A DNA stretch of 64,000 nt from Spartobacteria bacterium (GCA_003134785.1 PLCN01000018.1:1-64000); one strand, 5' to 3'; shown: positions 8,155 through 16,475, numbered from the stretch's first letter. Notes: generated by a model from the letters alone, not told the origin. Made by a program: numbers and translations.

Positions 8155-8226
8155 CGAATTGCTTTTATACGGAGGTGGTTTCCCCGTGCCAAGCACGCAG
8201 TCGAGAATGCCGAAACGCCGAGAATT

Positions 8227-8363
8227 GTAGGGCGTCTGTGTCAGACGCCGCGAGGCGGAGGGATAGACAGGATTTACGGGATGAACAGGATTTGGGTGAG
8301 AACACCAGAAGCCTCTGCTCCGGTTCCTGAATCCAATTCAATCCCCGTTAATCCTGTCAAATC
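8227..8363. repeat. Two further palindromic repeat types
   Basis: First, a hairpin GGCGTCTG-TG-TCAGACGCC at 8231-8249. Second, an imperfect inverted pair: GACAGGATTTACGGGATGAA at 8266 onward and AATCCCCGTTAATCCTGTC at 8340-8358. Both types are intergenic and unrelated to family A. Confidence 0.6.
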
Positions 8364-8413
8364 GCATCTGATTTCGCAAACGCCCAAACGAAGTTGATCA
8401 ATCAAAGAACTGA

Positions 8414-8538
8414 AGTGCGGAAAAAATACCTTTCGGAAGCCGCTAGCCCATAACGCGCGGCGCCAGTCACTTCATCGTCTTCAACGCCGTGCGCAACTGG
8501 CTCTCCTTGCGAACGCAGCCCCCCTGAAATCATTCACC
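8414..8538. repeat. Degenerate duplication, copy 2
   Basis: Second copy of the roughly 120-nt segment at 7274-7390, beginning AAAAAATACCTTTCGGAAGC. It sits just downstream of the methyltransferase gene that ends the four-gene operon. Confidence 0.6.
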
Positions 8539-8614
8539 GCAATGCAGATGGAGATAGTTGCACCTGTTTCAGAAGGCCAAAGGCGGATGTCGGCCCGAAT
8601 GCTGTCCCGGGCCG

Positions 8615-9511
8615 TCACGGTCGGAGACATCCTACTTTGACGACAGGCGCGTCGAACACGGACCGAGCGCGCGTCGGCAGCCGGCTAAAGAGAACGATCT
8701 CAGAAATATTGCGGCGTCCATCAGGAGTGCGACTGACAAGTGACTTGCGGACGATCTTCAACGCCCACCAGTTGGGATACAACCCGAGGATTTGAGCATC
8801 GAGCAAGCCGCTGACCGCGACAAACGCACCGCGTTTCGCTATCTCGCGACACGTTCGCGCAAGTCTTTCTTGATCGGTCCATTTGAAAAGCTTCTCGTTG
8901 TAACGGAGGAAGCCGTTTCCCTGGCCGAGAGTTGTGTACGGGGGGTCGGCGTATACGACATCCCCTCTCCGTGCCTCGACTAGAGCAGTTTCGAAGTCGG
9001 CTGTTCGTAGACGCGCAAACTTAAGAGCTTCCGCCGTTCGGAGCAGAAGGTCCGCTCTACAAATAACGCGCCCGGAGTCCCCGAACGGCACGTTGAAGAC
9101 TCCGCGCTGGTTCAAGCGAAAGACGCCACCCCAGCACGTTCGATTAAGATACAGAAAGCGCGCCGCTTCCCCGACGGCTGTTCTCGGAACCATCGCACGC
9201 ACCCGATAGTAGCACTCCGTACTATTCGAATATCGGCGTAGCGATCGGAGGACTTCATCCGGGTGCGCGCGAAGAGTTCTGAAGAACCTCATCAACGCGG
9301 GGTTCACATCGGAGAGGAACGCGTCACGCGGCCGCAAAGCGAAGTAAAGGGCCCCGCCACCTACAAACGGCTCGAAGTAGGAGCGGTTGGAACCGAGTTC
9401 GGCAGCGCAAACTCTCGCGAGCCTGCTCGCGATCCAAGCCTTACCGCCGGGCCACTTGACCAGTGGGCGTACGCTGTCACACGTCCTTTCATCTCGATTT
9501 GCCCTATTCAC
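8615..9511 (-). CDS. D12-class DNA adenine methyltransferase (Dam-like)
   Basis: A 298-residue N6-adenine methyltransferase of the MethyltransfD12 family (PF02086). It has KWPGGK at 19-24, the S-adenosylmethionine motif FEPFVGGGALYF at 46-57, and catalytic DPPY at 189-192. The GTG at 9511 is preferred to an upstream ATG at 9634: it overlaps the upstream stop by 8 nt (GTGAATAG), matches the family length, and removes a 41-residue extension lying inside the neighbouring gene. It is the last gene of an overlapped four-gene operon, where it could protect host DNA or mark the target state. Target site unknown. Confidence 0.88.
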   Translation of the reverse strand: MNRANRDERTCDSVRPLVKWPGGKAWIASRLARVCAAELGSNRSYFEPFVGGGALYFALRPRDAFLSDVNPALMRFFRTLRAHPDEVLRSLRRYSNSTECYYRVRAMVPRTAVGEAARFLYLNRTCWGGVFRLNQRGVFNVPFGDSGRVICRADLLLRTAEALKFARLRTADFETALVEARRGDVVYADPPYTTLGQGNGFLRYNEKLFKWTDQERLARTCREIAKRGAFVAVSGLLDAQILGLYPNWWALKIVRKSLVSRTPDGRRNISEIVLFSRLPTRARSVFDAPVVKVGCLRP

Positions 9512-10514
9512 TGGGAAACGCCGTGACGTCTTCGATGACGTACCTCCAGAACTTCCCGTTCGGTTCAGTAAGAACCACCTTATGTTCGTCTGGCACGTTG
9601 TAAAGAACCGTTGGAAAGCCGAGTGACAGGGCACGCAGGGCGAATGCCAGTGAGTGTGGCTTGGTTCCGCAGCAGAGGAAATATGAATTCTCGTCCTGTC
9701 GCTCTAATGCTGCAGCCGAAAGCGCTTTCCATACACCGATTGCATCTGCCGCATGCGCTCGTACGATTTGGTCTTCGGGAATTTTGTAACTATCGAATAG
9801 CTCCGAATTGTGGTTGTATGCCTTCTCGGCGTATTCGGGTATCACGCCCGGATCTGGAATAAGCACCGACACGCGATCCGGGTCTGCTCGCGCGACGACG
9901 CGGAGTGTCTTCCATCCTTCAAATCCCACTGAAACGAAGTAAAACCTTTTACTCTCCGGTTGATATCTTCCTAGCAAACCTGGGATCGGAACGGTTTGCC
10001 AGCGGCCTCCCGTGAAGGCTATTTCCGTAGCCGCCCCTTCGGGGTACGTAGCCTCGGCATAAAACACCGTGATCTTGTCCATCAAACCCGATACGAGTCC
10101 GACGGCACATACAGCTGAAGCGTAGTATCGTGGGCACGTAGAAATATCTAAGAGCAGGTGCAAAGGCCGCTTTCGCTCCTCAGCAATCTTTATCAGTCCA
10201 GTGTGAATTTTGGACCACAGCAGTTGAACATCGCGCGAAGAGCCATGTATCGACGTTGTTCGCTCGGAGACTTGCTTGCAATAGTCTGAGAGTATTTTGT
10301 CGTGTTTGTCCCGTAAGCCAAGAGTATCGCGGACGTCGAAATACATCGGCATCGCCTCGCCGAGTTTCACGTCCTGTGCTTTGGTGATACTAATGCATCT
10401 GCTATCCCAACTCGATGCGGTAAGAAACACGTCGAAGTAACCTTTCAGCTCCCCAGCCGAATTGAAGCAGTCGGATGTACCAGCTAAGTACGAGTCTCTA
10501 AAGCGAGTGATCAT
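9504..10514 (-). CDS. Unknown 336-residue protein of the candidate defence operon
   Basis: No family is named with confidence. Two blocks stand out: FDVFLTASSWDSRCISI at 27-43, and LHLLLDISTCPRYYASAVCA at 117-136, a hydrophobic strand ending in Asp-Ile-Ser-Thr followed by Arg. A third block (YFVSVGFEGWKTL) is near residue 190. This alternating strand/helix pattern suggests a Rossmann-like fold and recalls ligand-sensing domains found next to conflict-system ATPases, but that is inference. Its ATG overlaps the ATPase stop by 4 nt, and its own stop overlaps the methyltransferase start, so it is an obligate member of the unit. Confidence 0.7.
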   Translation of the reverse strand: MITRFRDSYLAGTSDCFNSAGELKGYFDVFLTASSWDSRCISITKAQDVKLGEAMPMYFDVRDTLGLRDKHDKILSDYCKQVSERTTSIHGSSRDVQLLWSKIHTGLIKIAEERKRPLHLLLDISTCPRYYASAVCAVGLVSGLMDKITVFYAEATYPEGAATEIAFTGGRWQTVPIPGLLGRYQPESKRFYFVSVGFEGWKTLRVVARADPDRVSVLIPDPGVIPEYAEKAYNHNSELFDSYKIPEDQIVRAHAADAIGVWKALSAAALERQDENSYFLCCGTKPHSLAFALRALSLGFPTVLYNVPDEHKVVLTEPNGKFWRYVIEDVTAFPSE

Positions 10515-12472
10515 TCCCCTTCCGTCACGAAAAGACTTCCTGTCTCTGGTTTCCCACCGGCGAGACGTTCACCTATTCGCTTTACTGTGTGAGCAAACCG
10601 TTTCGGATCGGCAATGTGCCGAATCTCGTCGATCTCTCGCAGTGAAATCAAAGTGTTGTAGTAGGCTCCTCGATAAGAGAAGCCGTATGCTGCCGAAAGC
10701 GACGTATGAACACGGAACTTCTTCGAACTACTTCCCTCTTGAATCACTACGAGAAAGCCTGCCTCGGCCGCGTCACGAATTAGCGCAAGCAGCTCCGCGT
10801 ATGTTTTCCGCTCGCCTTCGCTGAAATCGACAGTAAACAATCCGCGTTCGGTGGCTTCGAGAGGAGCCTTCCCTGGTCCCGTCGTTTGAACGATGCGGGT
10901 TATCTCGGCCAATGCATCGATAATTCGGCCTGCCTCAGTGGGCGAGAGAACCCCGGACTCTCGAAGTGAATTGCGCTTGTTCAGGCTTGCTCGCTTGATC
11001 GCTGCGTCCTGAACTTTGAGGCTTGGGGTTTGTTCAATGAAGCCCCGGACCGGCAGTTTACTCTCGACGAAAATCTCATGCAGGAAGTTCAGGTAGTCTC
11101 GAATGCAGAGGTCGCTCATTTGGAGCACCATTTTCGCGGACGCGTAGCGCACATCTGCTCCTAGCTCGGCGCACAAGGATAAATACGCCGCAACCATTTT
11201 CTTCCGCAGGTTTGCGCTTTGCTGTGCGCGCCGCATCCACTTTGGGTCGCTTGGCTCTGGTAGTCCAACCCTAAGTTTATCCAAAAGATACGCTTGGTAA
11301 ATTAGAGGCGTACCAGCGGTATCCTGTTCATCATCACCGGAGGGCGGCTGGTTCTCGAGCAAGTTCGCGAAAAATGGTTCCTTCGCGATCTCGCGCGCCG
11401 ACTTTAAGAGCTTCTTAGCGTATGCTTTCTCAGACGTCGAAAGAATCGATAGCAGTAGCTGGTTAATGCTCAAACGACCCAAGCATGCGATCGCATCGAA
11501 CTTAACCGTGAAATCCTTTAATCGTTCTTGTATGCGGACCGTCGAGACGCCTTCCGCAAGAGAACGGAACTCTTTGTCATTCATCTGGTCGAGTAATACC
11601 AATCGACGGTCGGCGTCCGACAAACTTAGATTTGGCACATAGGTTGTTGAAGGATCTTCCGGCCTGCGAACGAATGACACTAGGTGAAATAATGGCCACT
11701 TTGATAATCGGACGAGCGTGTTGAGGACCCTTTGATGTGCGACGCTGAGACACTCTCCCTCGTCCATGCAGACCTTAAAATGCCAGCTAGCAGTTCCGTC
11801 CTCTGTACTGCGGTTACATAAATCTCCCAGCTTGCCCCCAACGTCTCTCCCGAGTTGTCCGCATTGCGCGGTCAGAAATTGCTCGACCGATGCGTCGATC
11901 GCTCGTCCGTGTACCGCGTAATCAGCGAGTGCAGTCTGGATCCGTCGCATCTCTTGGCTGAGACCCTTCAGTGTCGTCGACGGACGCGACGCATGACGGC
12001 CGTATGGATTTGTCGCCCTCCACAAATGCGCGAAGACTTCGGCAACGCACGCTTGCTCGTCGTCTGCCGAGATGCGCAGGACGTTGTTGCTAATTAGCTC
12101 CGCGATTGCATCGCTCAGCAGTTGTAGAGCGATCGCATCTAGGTAAATGCCCGGAACGAGCGCCCGAGAAAGATCACTTTCGCTAGCGAGTCGCGCATCG
12201 AATGCGTTTAGAACGTACTCCGGTAGCTTAAGGTAAACGCCTATGTATTCCTTACTAAAAGCATCATGGCCTAGCTGCCTTTTAAGCGATTCGTTACTCA
12301 GGCGTTCGTTCCAAGCGAGGGCTTTGAGGAGAGTCGTCTTCCCGGTGCCACGCGACCCGACTAAATACGCGGGACTGGGTGGTTCGAGAAGTTCGGAAAA
12401 GTTGCTCGGTAAGAAGTATAGATGTTGCCCTTCATATTCAAACCGCTTCGGTTCAAACGGGGAGCTGTTCAC
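10511..12472 (-). CDS. P-loop ATPase, ORC/AAA-like, of the candidate defence operon
   Basis: A 653-residue protein. Walker A is GSRGTGKTT at 39-47, and a Walker B with acidic pair is FKVCMDEGE at 232-240 (Asp237, Glu238). The insert between them and the long helical C-terminal half resemble ORC/CDC6-like and STAND-type ATPases of biological conflict systems. A later segment around 490-600 has a winged-helix feel (LRESGVLSPTEAGRIIDALAEI), which would allow DNA binding. It overlaps the phosphoesterase gene by 4 nt upstream and the 336-residue gene by 4 nt downstream. Likely role: the NTP-driven sensor or motor of the system. Confidence 0.78.
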   Translation of the reverse strand: MNSSPFEPKRFEYEGQHLYFLPSNFSELLEPPSPAYLVGSRGTGKTTLLKALAWNERLSNESLKRQLGHDAFSKEYIGVYLKLPEYVLNAFDARLASESDLSRALVPGIYLDAIALQLLSDAIAELISNNVLRISADDEQACVAEVFAHLWRATNPYGRHASRPSTTLKGLSQEMRRIQTALADYAVHGRAIDASVEQFLTAQCGQLGRDVGGKLGDLCNRSTEDGTASWHFKVCMDEGECLSVAHQRVLNTLVRLSKWPLFHLVSFVRRPEDPSTTYVPNLSLSDADRRLVLLDQMNDKEFRSLAEGVSTVRIQERLKDFTVKFDAIACLGRLSINQLLLSILSTSEKAYAKKLLKSAREIAKEPFFANLLENQPPSGDDEQDTAGTPLIYQAYLLDKLRVGLPEPSDPKWMRRAQQSANLRKKMVAAYLSLCAELGADVRYASAKMVLQMSDLCIRDYLNFLHEIFVESKLPVRGFIEQTPSLKVQDAAIKRASLNKRNSLRESGVLSPTEAGRIIDALAEITRIVQTTGPGKAPLEATERGLFTVDFSEGERKTYAELLALIRDAAEAGFLVVIQEGSSSKKFRVHTSLSAAYGFSYRGAYYNTLISLREIDEIRHIADPKRFAHTVKRIGERLAGGKPETGSLFVTEGE

Positions 12473-13740
12473 GGATCAGTCCTCCTTACCTGCCAGTGCC
12501 GAGCCTCTTCGCTTCTGTTATCTATGTCTACGAATCCCAGCCACTCAAGGTCCACCAACACCTGCGCTACGGTGCGCGCTTGTGGCGTCGGCTTTGGAAG
12601 CGTTGCTCGCACATCTTCAAGCCTCATAAGCGACTTTCCTATACGTTGTAAGACTGACTTCGCCAAATCATCCGTAACGCGGGCGGCGTCTCTAATTGTA
12701 CGGAGTGGAATACGGATGGGCGCCTCAGCGCGGACTTCGCCATCATTCTGAAAGCGAAATGGTACGACCCTGCAGCCCATTGGAACATCTGAACGAGAGT
12801 AGTCGAGTTCCAGCACGTTAAACCCCTGATCAAACTTCGGCACTGAAATTGAAATAAGCCTGCCGCGATGAGACTTAGCATTCGTGACTATCTCCACTGG
12901 ATCATCATGGATGTGACCGTGACAGTAGATTATTGGGTGGGCGCACTGTGATAACCGCGATCGGACGAGGCCACCATTGACCACATCGCTGTACATTTCG
13001 AACCGCGGAAGCGCCTGCGGTAACAGGTTATGATGCGCTACGACTACGCCTAATGAGATGTCGGACTGTTGCTCGAGGGTGGTCGTTACGACATTTACGT
13101 CCGCCTCGATGAAAGCGGGTGTGTCGAGTTGCTCCCATATTAGATCGAGATGTGCCGAAGACGACTTGATTAGAGCGTCAAGCTTATCTTTTACGTCAGC
13201 CGGCAGATACCGGCGCTCGCCGCATCCAATGCAGGAGTTCAAGGAAAACAGATCGAGCTTGTGCCCGTTCGCGGAGACACGTGTATGCCGGCATTGCTTT
13301 GCGGCAAGCACATCTAGTCCAACGTTCACCCACGCGTCGATAAGGGGTTCGAATTTCAAATGGACGTCCGTTCCCTTCGGATCACACTTAGTCCGATTGA
13401 CGTCGTGATTTCCTGGAACGGCGTGAATCTGCTCGGTCGGCCATATACCTTCGTTCATCCGAAGATTCTTCACGAGGTACTCTAGGCAGATTCGGTACCC
13501 ATCTAAGTTCCCTTTATCCGTCAGATCGCCGCATATAAGCAGGCCCGCTAAAGATGTTCGATGCTGATTGCAAATCCGCACAAGCGAGCGCATAACGCTC
13601 CTCACCGGACTAATGGACAGCTTGTCGCCTACACCGGAGGGGAATGCTTTGTCTTTCCAATCGACGAATAGCTTCGCGTCGAGATCGACAAGATGGAAAT
13701 CGCCGACTTGGATCAACCGGATTGTGTGGGTTTGCGACAT
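12469..13740 (-). CDS. Calcineurin-like metallophosphoesterase of the candidate defence operon
   Basis: A 423-residue protein whose first 290 residues hold all metallophosphoesterase motifs: GDFH at 13-16, GDLTDKG at 71-77, GNHD at 110-113, AHHN at 235-238 and HGHIH at 274-278. All the metal-binding Asp/His/Asn residues are present, so it should be an active two-metal phosphodiesterase or nuclease. A C-terminal extension of about 110 residues (from EAPIRIPLRTI) could be a winged-helix or partner-binding domain. First gene of the four-gene operon; its stop overlaps the ATPase start (ATGA). The pairing with an ATPase recalls SbcCD or MPE-STAND conflict modules, but the ATPase is not SbcC. Confidence 0.85.
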   Translation of the reverse strand: MSQTHTIRLIQVGDFHLVDLDAKLFVDWKDKAFPSGVGDKLSISPVRSVMRSLVRICNQHRTSLAGLLICGDLTDKGNLDGYRICLEYLVKNLRMNEGIWPTEQIHAVPGNHDVNRTKCDPKGTDVHLKFEPLIDAWVNVGLDVLAAKQCRHTRVSANGHKLDLFSLNSCIGCGERRYLPADVKDKLDALIKSSSAHLDLIWEQLDTPAFIEADVNVVTTTLEQQSDISLGVVVAHHNLLPQALPRFEMYSDVVNGGLVRSRLSQCAHPIIYCHGHIHDDPVEIVTNAKSHRGRLISISVPKFDQGFNVLELDYSRSDVPMGCRVVPFRFQNDGEVRAEAPIRIPLRTIRDAARVTDDLAKSVLQRIGKSLMRLEDVRATLPKPTPQARTVAQVLVDLEWLGFVDIDNRSEEARHWQVRRTDP

Positions 13741-13859
13741 CAGTGCTGCTTTCGGTCGCGCTTAAGTCACGGTGCCCGGAGTTCCCATGCATGTAGGCAC
13801 GTTAGGACACGAAGATTTGTGCGTATGGCGCCAGCGCATGGTTGATAATCTGCACACCG

Positions 13860-13970
13860 TAGCGAGAAATGGCGAGATCGCTGGAAAAGCTTTTCGTGCC
13901 ATGCCGCCACCTTCAGATCCCTCACCGCGATGCTGGCCAGAACGCTATCGATTGTCATCGACCTGATCAT
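13860..13970 (-). pseudogene. Glyoxalase/VOC-family fragment, N-terminal
   Basis: The frame starting MTIDSVLASIAVRDLKVAAW and continuing HEKLFQR matches the first strand-helix of VOC-superfamily proteins. It then loses similarity. No complete domain follows, so this is a remnant. Confidence 0.4.
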
Positions 13971-14280
13971 CTTCCCGGAAAGCCCGGCAAGCAAGGCACC
14001 GCTTCGCGGTTCACGCGAGATCGACGAGTGCCGTCTTTCCTAGGTCCTTGCGATCTGGACCGGCGAAGGGCTCCGGTCGCGCTTTTGCCGGGTTCGAGTG
14101 AGCCGACCTGATCACGAGGCCGAGGAGGTTGAAGGCGTTTACGTTTCTCCCGTTTCCGTTTCTCTGTTCTTCAAGTTCGGCGGGCTGGCGACCCTCCTTC
14201 GCAAAGCCTGCGGCGGGCAGGCGTCAGAAAGCGAATCTTGTGTGGATATAGGCGTGCACCCACATGGCGGCCATCTCGAA

Positions 14281-14380
14281 TCAGGAATCGCGGACCGGGT
14301 TTCCGTCCGGATCGATCAGCATCAGACTGGCCGGGCCGGTGCTGGATTCATCCGCCTCCCATTCGACTACGCTCCCGCCA
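14281..14380 (-). pseudogene. VOC-like fragment, C-terminal
   Basis: The frame reads VVEWEADESSTGP then ASLMLIDPDGNPV and stops. The DPDGNP turn is the usual closing motif of glyoxalase-like domains. It may be the tail of the gene whose start lies at 13860-13970, since both are on the minus strand, but the order is wrong for a single gene, so these are either two genes or rearranged pieces. Confidence 0.3.
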
Positions 14381-15939: not shown

Positions 15940-16152
15940 ATGACTGCGCAGTCGTTGATCATGAGCGACCCCGAGGTGCTCGGTGGAACTCCCGTCTTCA
16001 ACGGCACACGCGTACCGGTCGCAACGCTCTTCGATTATCTGGAAGATGACTATTCTCTCGAAGAATTTCTCGAATGCTTCCCGACGGTCAGTCGCGAGGT
16101 TGCGACGCGGGTCCTGGAGCAATCGAAAGAGGCGCTGCTCGAGCCGTCGTGA
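15940..16152 (+). CDS. DUF433-family antitoxin
   Basis: A 70-residue DUF433 protein (PF04255). The family signature DPEVLGGTPVFNGTRVPV is at 10-27, followed by the short winged-helix-like region LFDYLEDDYSLEEFLECFP. These proteins are antitoxins of PIN-like DUF5615 toxins. The downstream toxin gene begins on its stop codon (GTGA overlap), which supports the pairing. Autoregulation of its own promoter is expected for the family. Confidence 0.85.
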   Translation: MTAQSLIMSDPEVLGGTPVFNGTRVPVATLFDYLEDDYSLEEFLECFPTVSREVATRVLEQSKEALLEPS

Positions 16153-16475
16153 AGATTCTTCTCGACGAATGCGTGCCGTTGCCGCTCCGCGATATTCTTG
16201 ATCGATATACTTGCCGGACGGCGCCGCAAATGGGCTGGAAGAATATCCGGAATGGAGAGCTTCTCGATCTTGCCGAAGGTGAGTTCGACCTGTTCATCAC
16301 GGCGGACCAAGGGGTTCGTTATCAGCAGAATCTATCCGGCCGGCAAATCGCAATCCTCAAACTCTCGACGAACAAATTGGGTCTAATCAAAGCTGCTGCT
16401 GGTCAGATCCAAGAAGCTGTCGACTCAACCGGGCCAACAGAATTTCGCCGGCTTGAGATTCCGAAACGCGGTTAG
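16149..16475 (+). CDS. DUF5615 PIN-like toxin
   Basis: A 108-residue DUF5615 PIN-like protein. MKILLDECVP at 1-10 supplies the first acidic residues (Asp6, Glu7), MGWKNIRNGELLDLA the helix, and FDLFITADQGVRYQQNL the second acidic site (Asp53). It starts at GTG 16149, overlapping the DUF433 stop by 4 nt. The likely activity is Mg-dependent RNA cleavage, restrained by the DUF433 partner. It appears intact. Confidence 0.82.
   Translation: MKILLDECVPLPLRDILDRYTCRTAPQMGWKNIRNGELLDLAEGEFDLFITADQGVRYQQNLSGRQIAILKLSTNKLGLIKAAAGQIQEAVDSTGPTEFRRLEIPKRG

Follow-up and report, generated by a model that had tools for sequence, protein, structure and literature searches.

Organization and conservation of the operon

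We analysed a 64,000-nucleotide (nt) stretch of DNA from a Spartobacteria bacterium, here called the window, in which an initial annotation had placed a candidate undescribed four-gene defence or conflict operon at positions 8615–13740. All four open reading frames (ORFs) were found, on the minus strand. The first encodes a calcineurin-like metallophosphoesterase (gene 1, 12469–13740, 423 amino acids (aa)) and is followed by genes for an ORC/CDC6-like AAA+ ATPase (gene 2, 10511–12472, 653 aa), a tandem-CARF nucleotide receptor of the CARF6 type (gene 3, 9504–10514, 336 aa) and a Dam-family D12 adenine-N6 DNA methyltransferase (gene 4, 8615–9511, 298 aa from a GTG start). Consecutive genes overlap by 4, 4 and 8 nt as had been noted, the last value holding if the methyltransferase starts at the GTG at 9509–9511; its ORF stays open beyond this codon up to 9634. 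In agreement with the initial annotation, the enzymatic motifs of the phosphoesterase and the ATPase are intact when judged from alignments of homologues, as are those of the methyltransferase in its own sequence.

A search for the same neighbourhood in other genomes had been proposed along with the candidate. Scanning genomes with an alignment of the phosphoesterase gave 67 loci, and viral contigs contributed three more matches; phage records contained no homologue. The phosphoesterase, ATPase and CARF genes occur in the same order and on the same strand in 69 loci (from the scan, the plasmid loci and the window), so that the trio is conserved beyond the source genome and a chance origin of the gene set is excluded. 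Loci without the full trio lie mostly at contig ends, and two (L075 and L076), which carry a different phosphoesterase family and lack the partners, were set aside. A locus in Rhizobium mongolense (L020:9989–12451) looks decayed: it has a shortened ATPase (396 aa) and lacks a recognizable CARF gene. Record titles assign the family to Pseudomonadota, Bacteroidales, Desulfobacterales, Myxococcota, Planctomycetota, Acidobacteria, Actinomycetota, Bacillota, Dormibacterota, Verrucomicrobia, Chloroflexota, a Nealsonbacteria bin and a Thorarchaeota metagenome-assembled genome (MAG), where the locus is cut by a contig end. The spread thus covers at least ten bacterial phyla and this one archaeal MAG. 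The family is rare: among 387 genomes from the window's phylum, two, one of which is the window's own, had a clear relative of the phosphoesterase.

Features of the encoded proteins

The 336-residue product of gene 3 had been described as unknown. The ORF is real, but the protein is recognizable as a CARF receptor, both by profile and by predicted fold, the two kinds of check that had been recommended for it. It matches several PADLOC CARF6 profiles (best E = 9.7e-16), and a Pfam scan gave no match. Since a sequence search of the PDB with gene 3, and likewise with gene 2, returned nothing better than E > 0.01, a fold search was applied to gene 3. The AlphaFold2 model, built from an alignment of 38 homologues, has a predicted local distance difference test score (pLDDT) of 95.3 and a predicted template modelling score (pTM) of 0.94. 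Foldseek was ambiguous at the top of its ranking, with universal stress proteins first and Can2, Csa3, Csm6 and Cap4 lower; re-ranking with VIA-align put CARF/SAVED receptors on top (Can1, Z = 12.0 over 228 residues; Can2, 11.8; Cam1, 11.1; Csm6, 10.7; Csa3, 10.3; Cap5 SAVED, 8.8). HMMER matched the N-terminal half weakly to the Csm6 motif DLTSGTK (E = 0.56), and this weak alignment places R129 on Csm6 K137, the residue mutated in a K137A entry. R129 is R or K in 36 of the 38 homologues, and K285, which lies in a C-terminal G-x-K motif, is invariant in all 38. Gene 3 therefore encodes a tandem-CARF receptor that stands alone, no effector domain being fused to it. CARF domains bind cyclic oligonucleotides in known cases, and the fold together with the conserved basic pocket positions suggests that gene 3 binds a ligand.

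Gene 1 matches the Pfam family Metallophos above the cut-off (E = 2.6e-6), and its metal ligands (D14/H16, D72, N111/H112/D113, H236/H237 and H274/H276/H278) are invariant in 33 homologues. The AlphaFold2 model (pLDDT 88.6) contains a small C-terminal domain of helices and two strands at about residues 349–423. Its closest fold is YydB (Z = 24.4), and other close folds include the cyclic-nucleotide phosphodiesterase Rv0805 (Z = 22.2, 2.6 Å over 223 aa), purple acid phosphatases (Z = 21), GpdQ, Lmo2642 and SMPDL3A. Mre11 lies lower among the matches (Z = 17.4), which also include SbcD. On the evidence of the model, these neighbours lean towards nucleotide or small phosphodiester substrates. The suggestion that the phosphoesterase is a nuclease effector is probably wrong: YydB and the nucleotide and phosphodiester hydrolases are nearer to it than Mre11, and HD or PRTase enzymes fill its slot in related operons, as described below.

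The ATPase belongs to Pfam PF24389, ORC-CDC6-like (E = 2e-52; 179.2 bits against a cut-off of 27), and its Walker A residues G39, G42, G44, K45 and T46 and Walker B residue D237 are invariant in 32 homologues. It is predicted to be a DNA-associated motor or scaffold, which is in keeping with its earlier reading as a sensor or motor; it may scan DNA. Gene 4 carries FxGxG and DPPY motifs and matches PF02086 (MethyltransfD12, E = 2.5e-34), and it shares with restriction-modification systems a site-specific DNA methyltransferase family (NCBIfam TIGR00571, Dam family; 173.6 bits against a cut-off of 114.85). We predict it to be a self-marking enzyme, as had been proposed. None of the four genes matched a restriction endonuclease family in Pfam, PADLOC or NCBIfam.

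A D12 gene was found near 15 of the 69 trio loci, the window included. It overlaps or adjoins the CARF gene in 13 of the 15, precedes the phosphoesterase in L012 and lies about 2.5 kb downstream in L029. In the latter, a Verrucomicrobia relative, a DndB/DpdB (ParB-like) protein stands between the CARF and methyltransferase genes (L029:8092–10428). On the ATPase tree, a quick tree with several long branches, the D12-bearing loci fall within one 17-member clade (15 with the gene and 2 without), so that D12 presence takes 3 changes compared with 13.3 for shuffled labels; the remaining 36 rows, nearly all from Alphaproteobacteria, have no D12 gene. Moreover, the methyltransferase distances between pairs of loci track the corresponding distances for each of the three core genes (rho 0.57–0.79, Mantel p ≤ 6e-4). 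Because it is confined to one clade and its distances follow those of the core genes, the methyltransferase is integral to the D12-bearing subtype and not to the core.

Exchange of the enzyme gene in the window's phylum

We surveyed PF24389 genes in the same 387 genomes of this phylum, Verrucomicrobiota, and examined ten well-scoring loci, the window among them. The CARF6 gene directly follows the PF24389 gene in the window and in eight of the nine others; in the ninth, L150, the PF24389 gene is followed by an unassigned protein with both CARF-like motifs. The enzyme beside the ATPase–CARF pair varies. It is a phosphoesterase in the window, L146 and L143, an HD-CE protein in L144 and a PRTase-CE protein in L145, L147, L148 and L150. 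In L113 and L149 a serine/threonine kinase is fused to the ATPase, the kinase domain being confirmed by Pfam in L113 and, to judge from length and context, probable in L149. A DNA methyltransferase of D12, C5, N6 or N6/N4 type is present in all loci except L150 (9/10). HD- and PRTase-type enzymes have nucleotides and not DNA as their substrates, and since they occupy the slot of the phosphoesterase, the simplest substrate class common to the slot enzymes would be nucleotides.

Two of these loci deserve separate mention. In L150, a PRTase-CE variant, the position held elsewhere by the methyltransferase is taken by a protein of 626 aa that weakly matches HAD phosphatases (L150:9892–11769). L113 is a second, related system of the kinase type in the window's own genome (G000 contig 25, 156304–160960; L113:6305–10961), consisting of an N6/N4-type DNA methyltransferase, a kinase–ORC-CDC6-like ATPase fusion of 831 aa and a CARF6 protein of 346 aa.

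Genomic context

The operon occupies a variable slot at 8537–14074 of the window. The sequences on either side (8370–8536 and 14075–14374) align to both flanks of a slot in a congener (G002:C85; L112), where a complete-looking Gabija pair lies between them (L112:3654–7224; GajA, E = 6.6e-219; GajB, E = 4.7e-222); a further congener, G003, has different content in the slot. In 1-kb bins the GC content is 0.52–0.56 across the operon compared with mostly 0.56–0.60 outside, and gene 3 was not found in the 57 related genomes searched, seven of them congeneric. The lower GC, the absence of gene 3 from these relatives and the Gabija pair in the congener's slot bear out the accessory location that the initial annotation had assigned to the operon. 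Copies elsewhere are often on plasmids, near integrases or relaxases, and the plasmid copies adjoin genes annotated as toxin-antitoxin, dGTPase, restriction, JAB/ThiF and QueC-like. The neighbours of methyltransferase-type loci gave 127 PADLOC families in 116 proteins compared with 5 in 97 control proteins; these are counts of families, not genes, many of the 127 come from one type I locus, and the control is small and drawn from genomes that are not taxon-matched.

ThyX, a flavin-dependent thymidylate synthase, is encoded within 10 kb of seven loci. It directly follows the CARF gene in L012 (with a 4-nt overlap), L016 and L033, follows the methyltransferase in L011 and is near it in L018; in L005 it is interrupted by an IS66 element, and in L019 it lies 5 kb away on the opposite strand. 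It recurs at loci both with and without a methyltransferase. ThyX makes dTMP, and its presence fits a nucleotide theme. As a member of the window operon it was rejected, being absent from the window and its genome.

Two further features were noted in the window. Beside the slot, a DUF433 gene and the short ORF that follows and overlaps it (15940–16475) resemble a toxin-antitoxin pair. At 8222–8250 there is a 29-nt repeat with an inner palindrome (GGCGTCTG..CAGACGCC), several copies of which occur in the congener stretch L112; it looks like a repetitive extragenic palindromic (REP)-type element.

Relationship to known systems

Profiles from PADLOC and NCBIfam did not assign the operon to a named system, in line with the earlier failure to match it to one, and no PADLOC profile gives a strong system name to gene 1 or gene 2. 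That it is undescribed is doubtful, since ORC-CDC6-like, HD-CE and PRTase-CE (PF24389–PF24391) and wHTH-Calcineurin_assc (PF24408) are existing Pfam families with near-consecutive accessions. The CE names presumably go back to Nicastro et al. 2023, who reportedly described nucleotide-targeting conflict systems with ORC-CDC6-like, HD-CE, PRTase-CE and Calcineurin-CE components. In view of the Pfam entries, the class has probably been predicted computationally already, and the operon is probably a divergent variant of it. The ATPase family is the same, the ATPase–CARF pair carries HD-CE or PRTase-CE in sister operons and the enzyme is of the calcineurin superfamily. The window phosphoesterase, however, belongs to a divergent subfamily: it has no Pfam match to PF24408 in the whole protein or its C-terminus, despite the C-terminal domain of the model, and BLAST detected no similarity between it and the phosphoesterase of L143, which bears PF24408. 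Gene order also differs, the methyltransferase being the last gene and not the first. A literature search turned up no paper on the operon and no experimental study of it, its exact arrangement not having been compared with Nicastro et al. 2023 or Makarova et al. 2020. One paper (PMC12839542) cites Nicastro et al. 2023 for phosphoesterases in nucleotide-targeting immune systems.

Other systems share single components. Gene 3 matches PADLOC CARF6 proteins (CARF6--CARF_CARF_CARF, CARF_STK_AAA), and a kinase–ATPase–CARF6 relative exists in the same genome, but the window's CARF6 gene has no cyclase, CRISPR or fused effector beside it. The CARF/SAVED fold is shared with type III CRISPR ancillary effectors (Can1, Csm6) and the SAVED effectors of CBASS, from which the operon differs in that the receptor is separate from the effector and that no Cas10 or CD-NTase is encoded. 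In DS-8 and DS-9 a related metallophosphatase of the same superfamily, with an SMPDL3A-like fold, is essential for defence (DefensePredictor; PMC13092281), and gene 1 matches the DS-9_1 profile over about 60 residues (E = 2.9e-7). DS-8, however, has a NACHT protein and DS-9 a HAD phosphatase, and CARF, ORC ATPase and methyltransferase are not reported there. BREX and Ssp combine a DNA-modifying enzyme (methyltransferase or modification) with an ORC/CDC6-clade ATPase (PMC12839542, PMC10853773). The window operon pairs the same activities, but PglZ, BrxX and SspB were not seen in it, and it has a CARF receptor and a small phosphoesterase. BREX, considered on account of the ORC ATPase and the methyltransferase, was rejected, there being no PglZ, BrxX, BrxA or BrxB among the four genes. 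An Mre11/Rad50 (SbcCD) system was likewise rejected, the gene 2 ATPase being ORC-CDC6-like and not SMC.

Discussion

The Gabija pair in the congener's slot, the defence-gene neighbours (with the coarse PADLOC control) and the gene composition support the defence or conflict function first suggested for the operon. We consider it reasonably likely that it encodes a horizontally mobile, restriction-like anti-phage system in which a DNA methyltransferase, an ORC/CDC6-like ATPase and a CARF receptor are coupled to a nucleotide-directed enzyme. In such a system the Dam-type methyltransferase would mark host DNA, and the ATPase would load on, or scan, DNA. A small nucleotide ligand in the two-CARF pocket would enable gene 3 to gate a complex, the trigger perhaps being foreign or unmarked DNA that coincides with the ligand cue. 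The phosphoesterase would then hydrolyse nucleotides, either free nucleotides or a nucleotide signal, so that phage replication stops.

Several points weigh against this reading, beginning with the limits of the PADLOC control. The best fold match of gene 1, YydB, has no substrate that we know of, and the further matches to Mre11 and to purple acid phosphatases mean that the fold cannot fix the substrate. The kinase variants L113 and L149 do not fit nucleotide depletion, and the alphaproteobacterial clade without a methyltransferase implies that the core can do without self-marking. The host genome, which is 97% complete, contains no match to Cas10, and its only SMODS match falls short of the cut-off, leaving the source of any CARF ligand unexplained. 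Finally, the whole reading rests on computation.

Restriction proper, with the phosphoesterase as an Mre11/SbcD-like nuclease that is driven by the ATPase and cuts DNA lacking the methyl mark, the CARF protein acting as an allosteric switch, seems to us unlikely. The ATPase–phosphoesterase pair does resemble Rad50–Mre11, Mre11 and SbcD are among the fold matches of gene 1 and the methyltransferase co-evolves with the core. YydB and the nucleotide and phosphodiester hydrolases are nevertheless closer folds, sister operons carry HD-CE or PRTase-CE in place of the phosphoesterase and an entire clade lacks any methyltransferase.

Still less probable is a role in signal control, in which the phosphoesterase would destroy the cyclic nucleotide to which the CARF protein responds and serve as an off-switch, or as a guard against other signalling defences, and not as the killer. 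There is no cyclase in the operon, the host genome offers only the sub-threshold SMODS match, and a ring-nuclease role is difficult to assign to the HD, PRTase and kinase enzymes found in its place, even though the close folds Rv0805, Lmo2642 and SMPDL3A are cyclic-nucleotide or nucleotide phosphodiesterases, CARF ligands are cyclic oligonucleotides in known cases and CARF proteins have known ring-nuclease partners. A regulatory or maintenance module of mobile elements, such as plasmid addiction or nucleotide salvage, would accord with the plasmid, integrase and relaxase associations and the metabolic ThyX partner, yet we regard it as very improbable given the slot shared with Gabija, the defence genes in the neighbourhoods, the combination of methyltransferase and CARF and the absence from all sampled relatives.

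Returning to the restriction-like system with a nucleotide-directed enzyme, we tentatively suggest, as a bolder version, a third kind of restriction. Here the check for a methyl mark would act through the ORC-like ATPase and the CARF receptor to destroy the nucleotide pool, not DNA; the CARF protein would sense a nucleotide from no known cyclase, and ThyX, in some copies, might help the host to rebuild dTMP or tune the signal.

If the main reading is right, the operon would be a restriction-like system whose effector attacks nucleotides and spares DNA, and CARF receptors would be at work beyond CRISPR and CBASS with no evident cyclase. The split between loci with and without a methyltransferase is a natural comparison. 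Furthermore, the exchangeable slot, occupied by phosphoesterase, HD, PRTase or kinase, offers a direct route to what the ATPase–CARF core signals and to which nucleotide is sensed.

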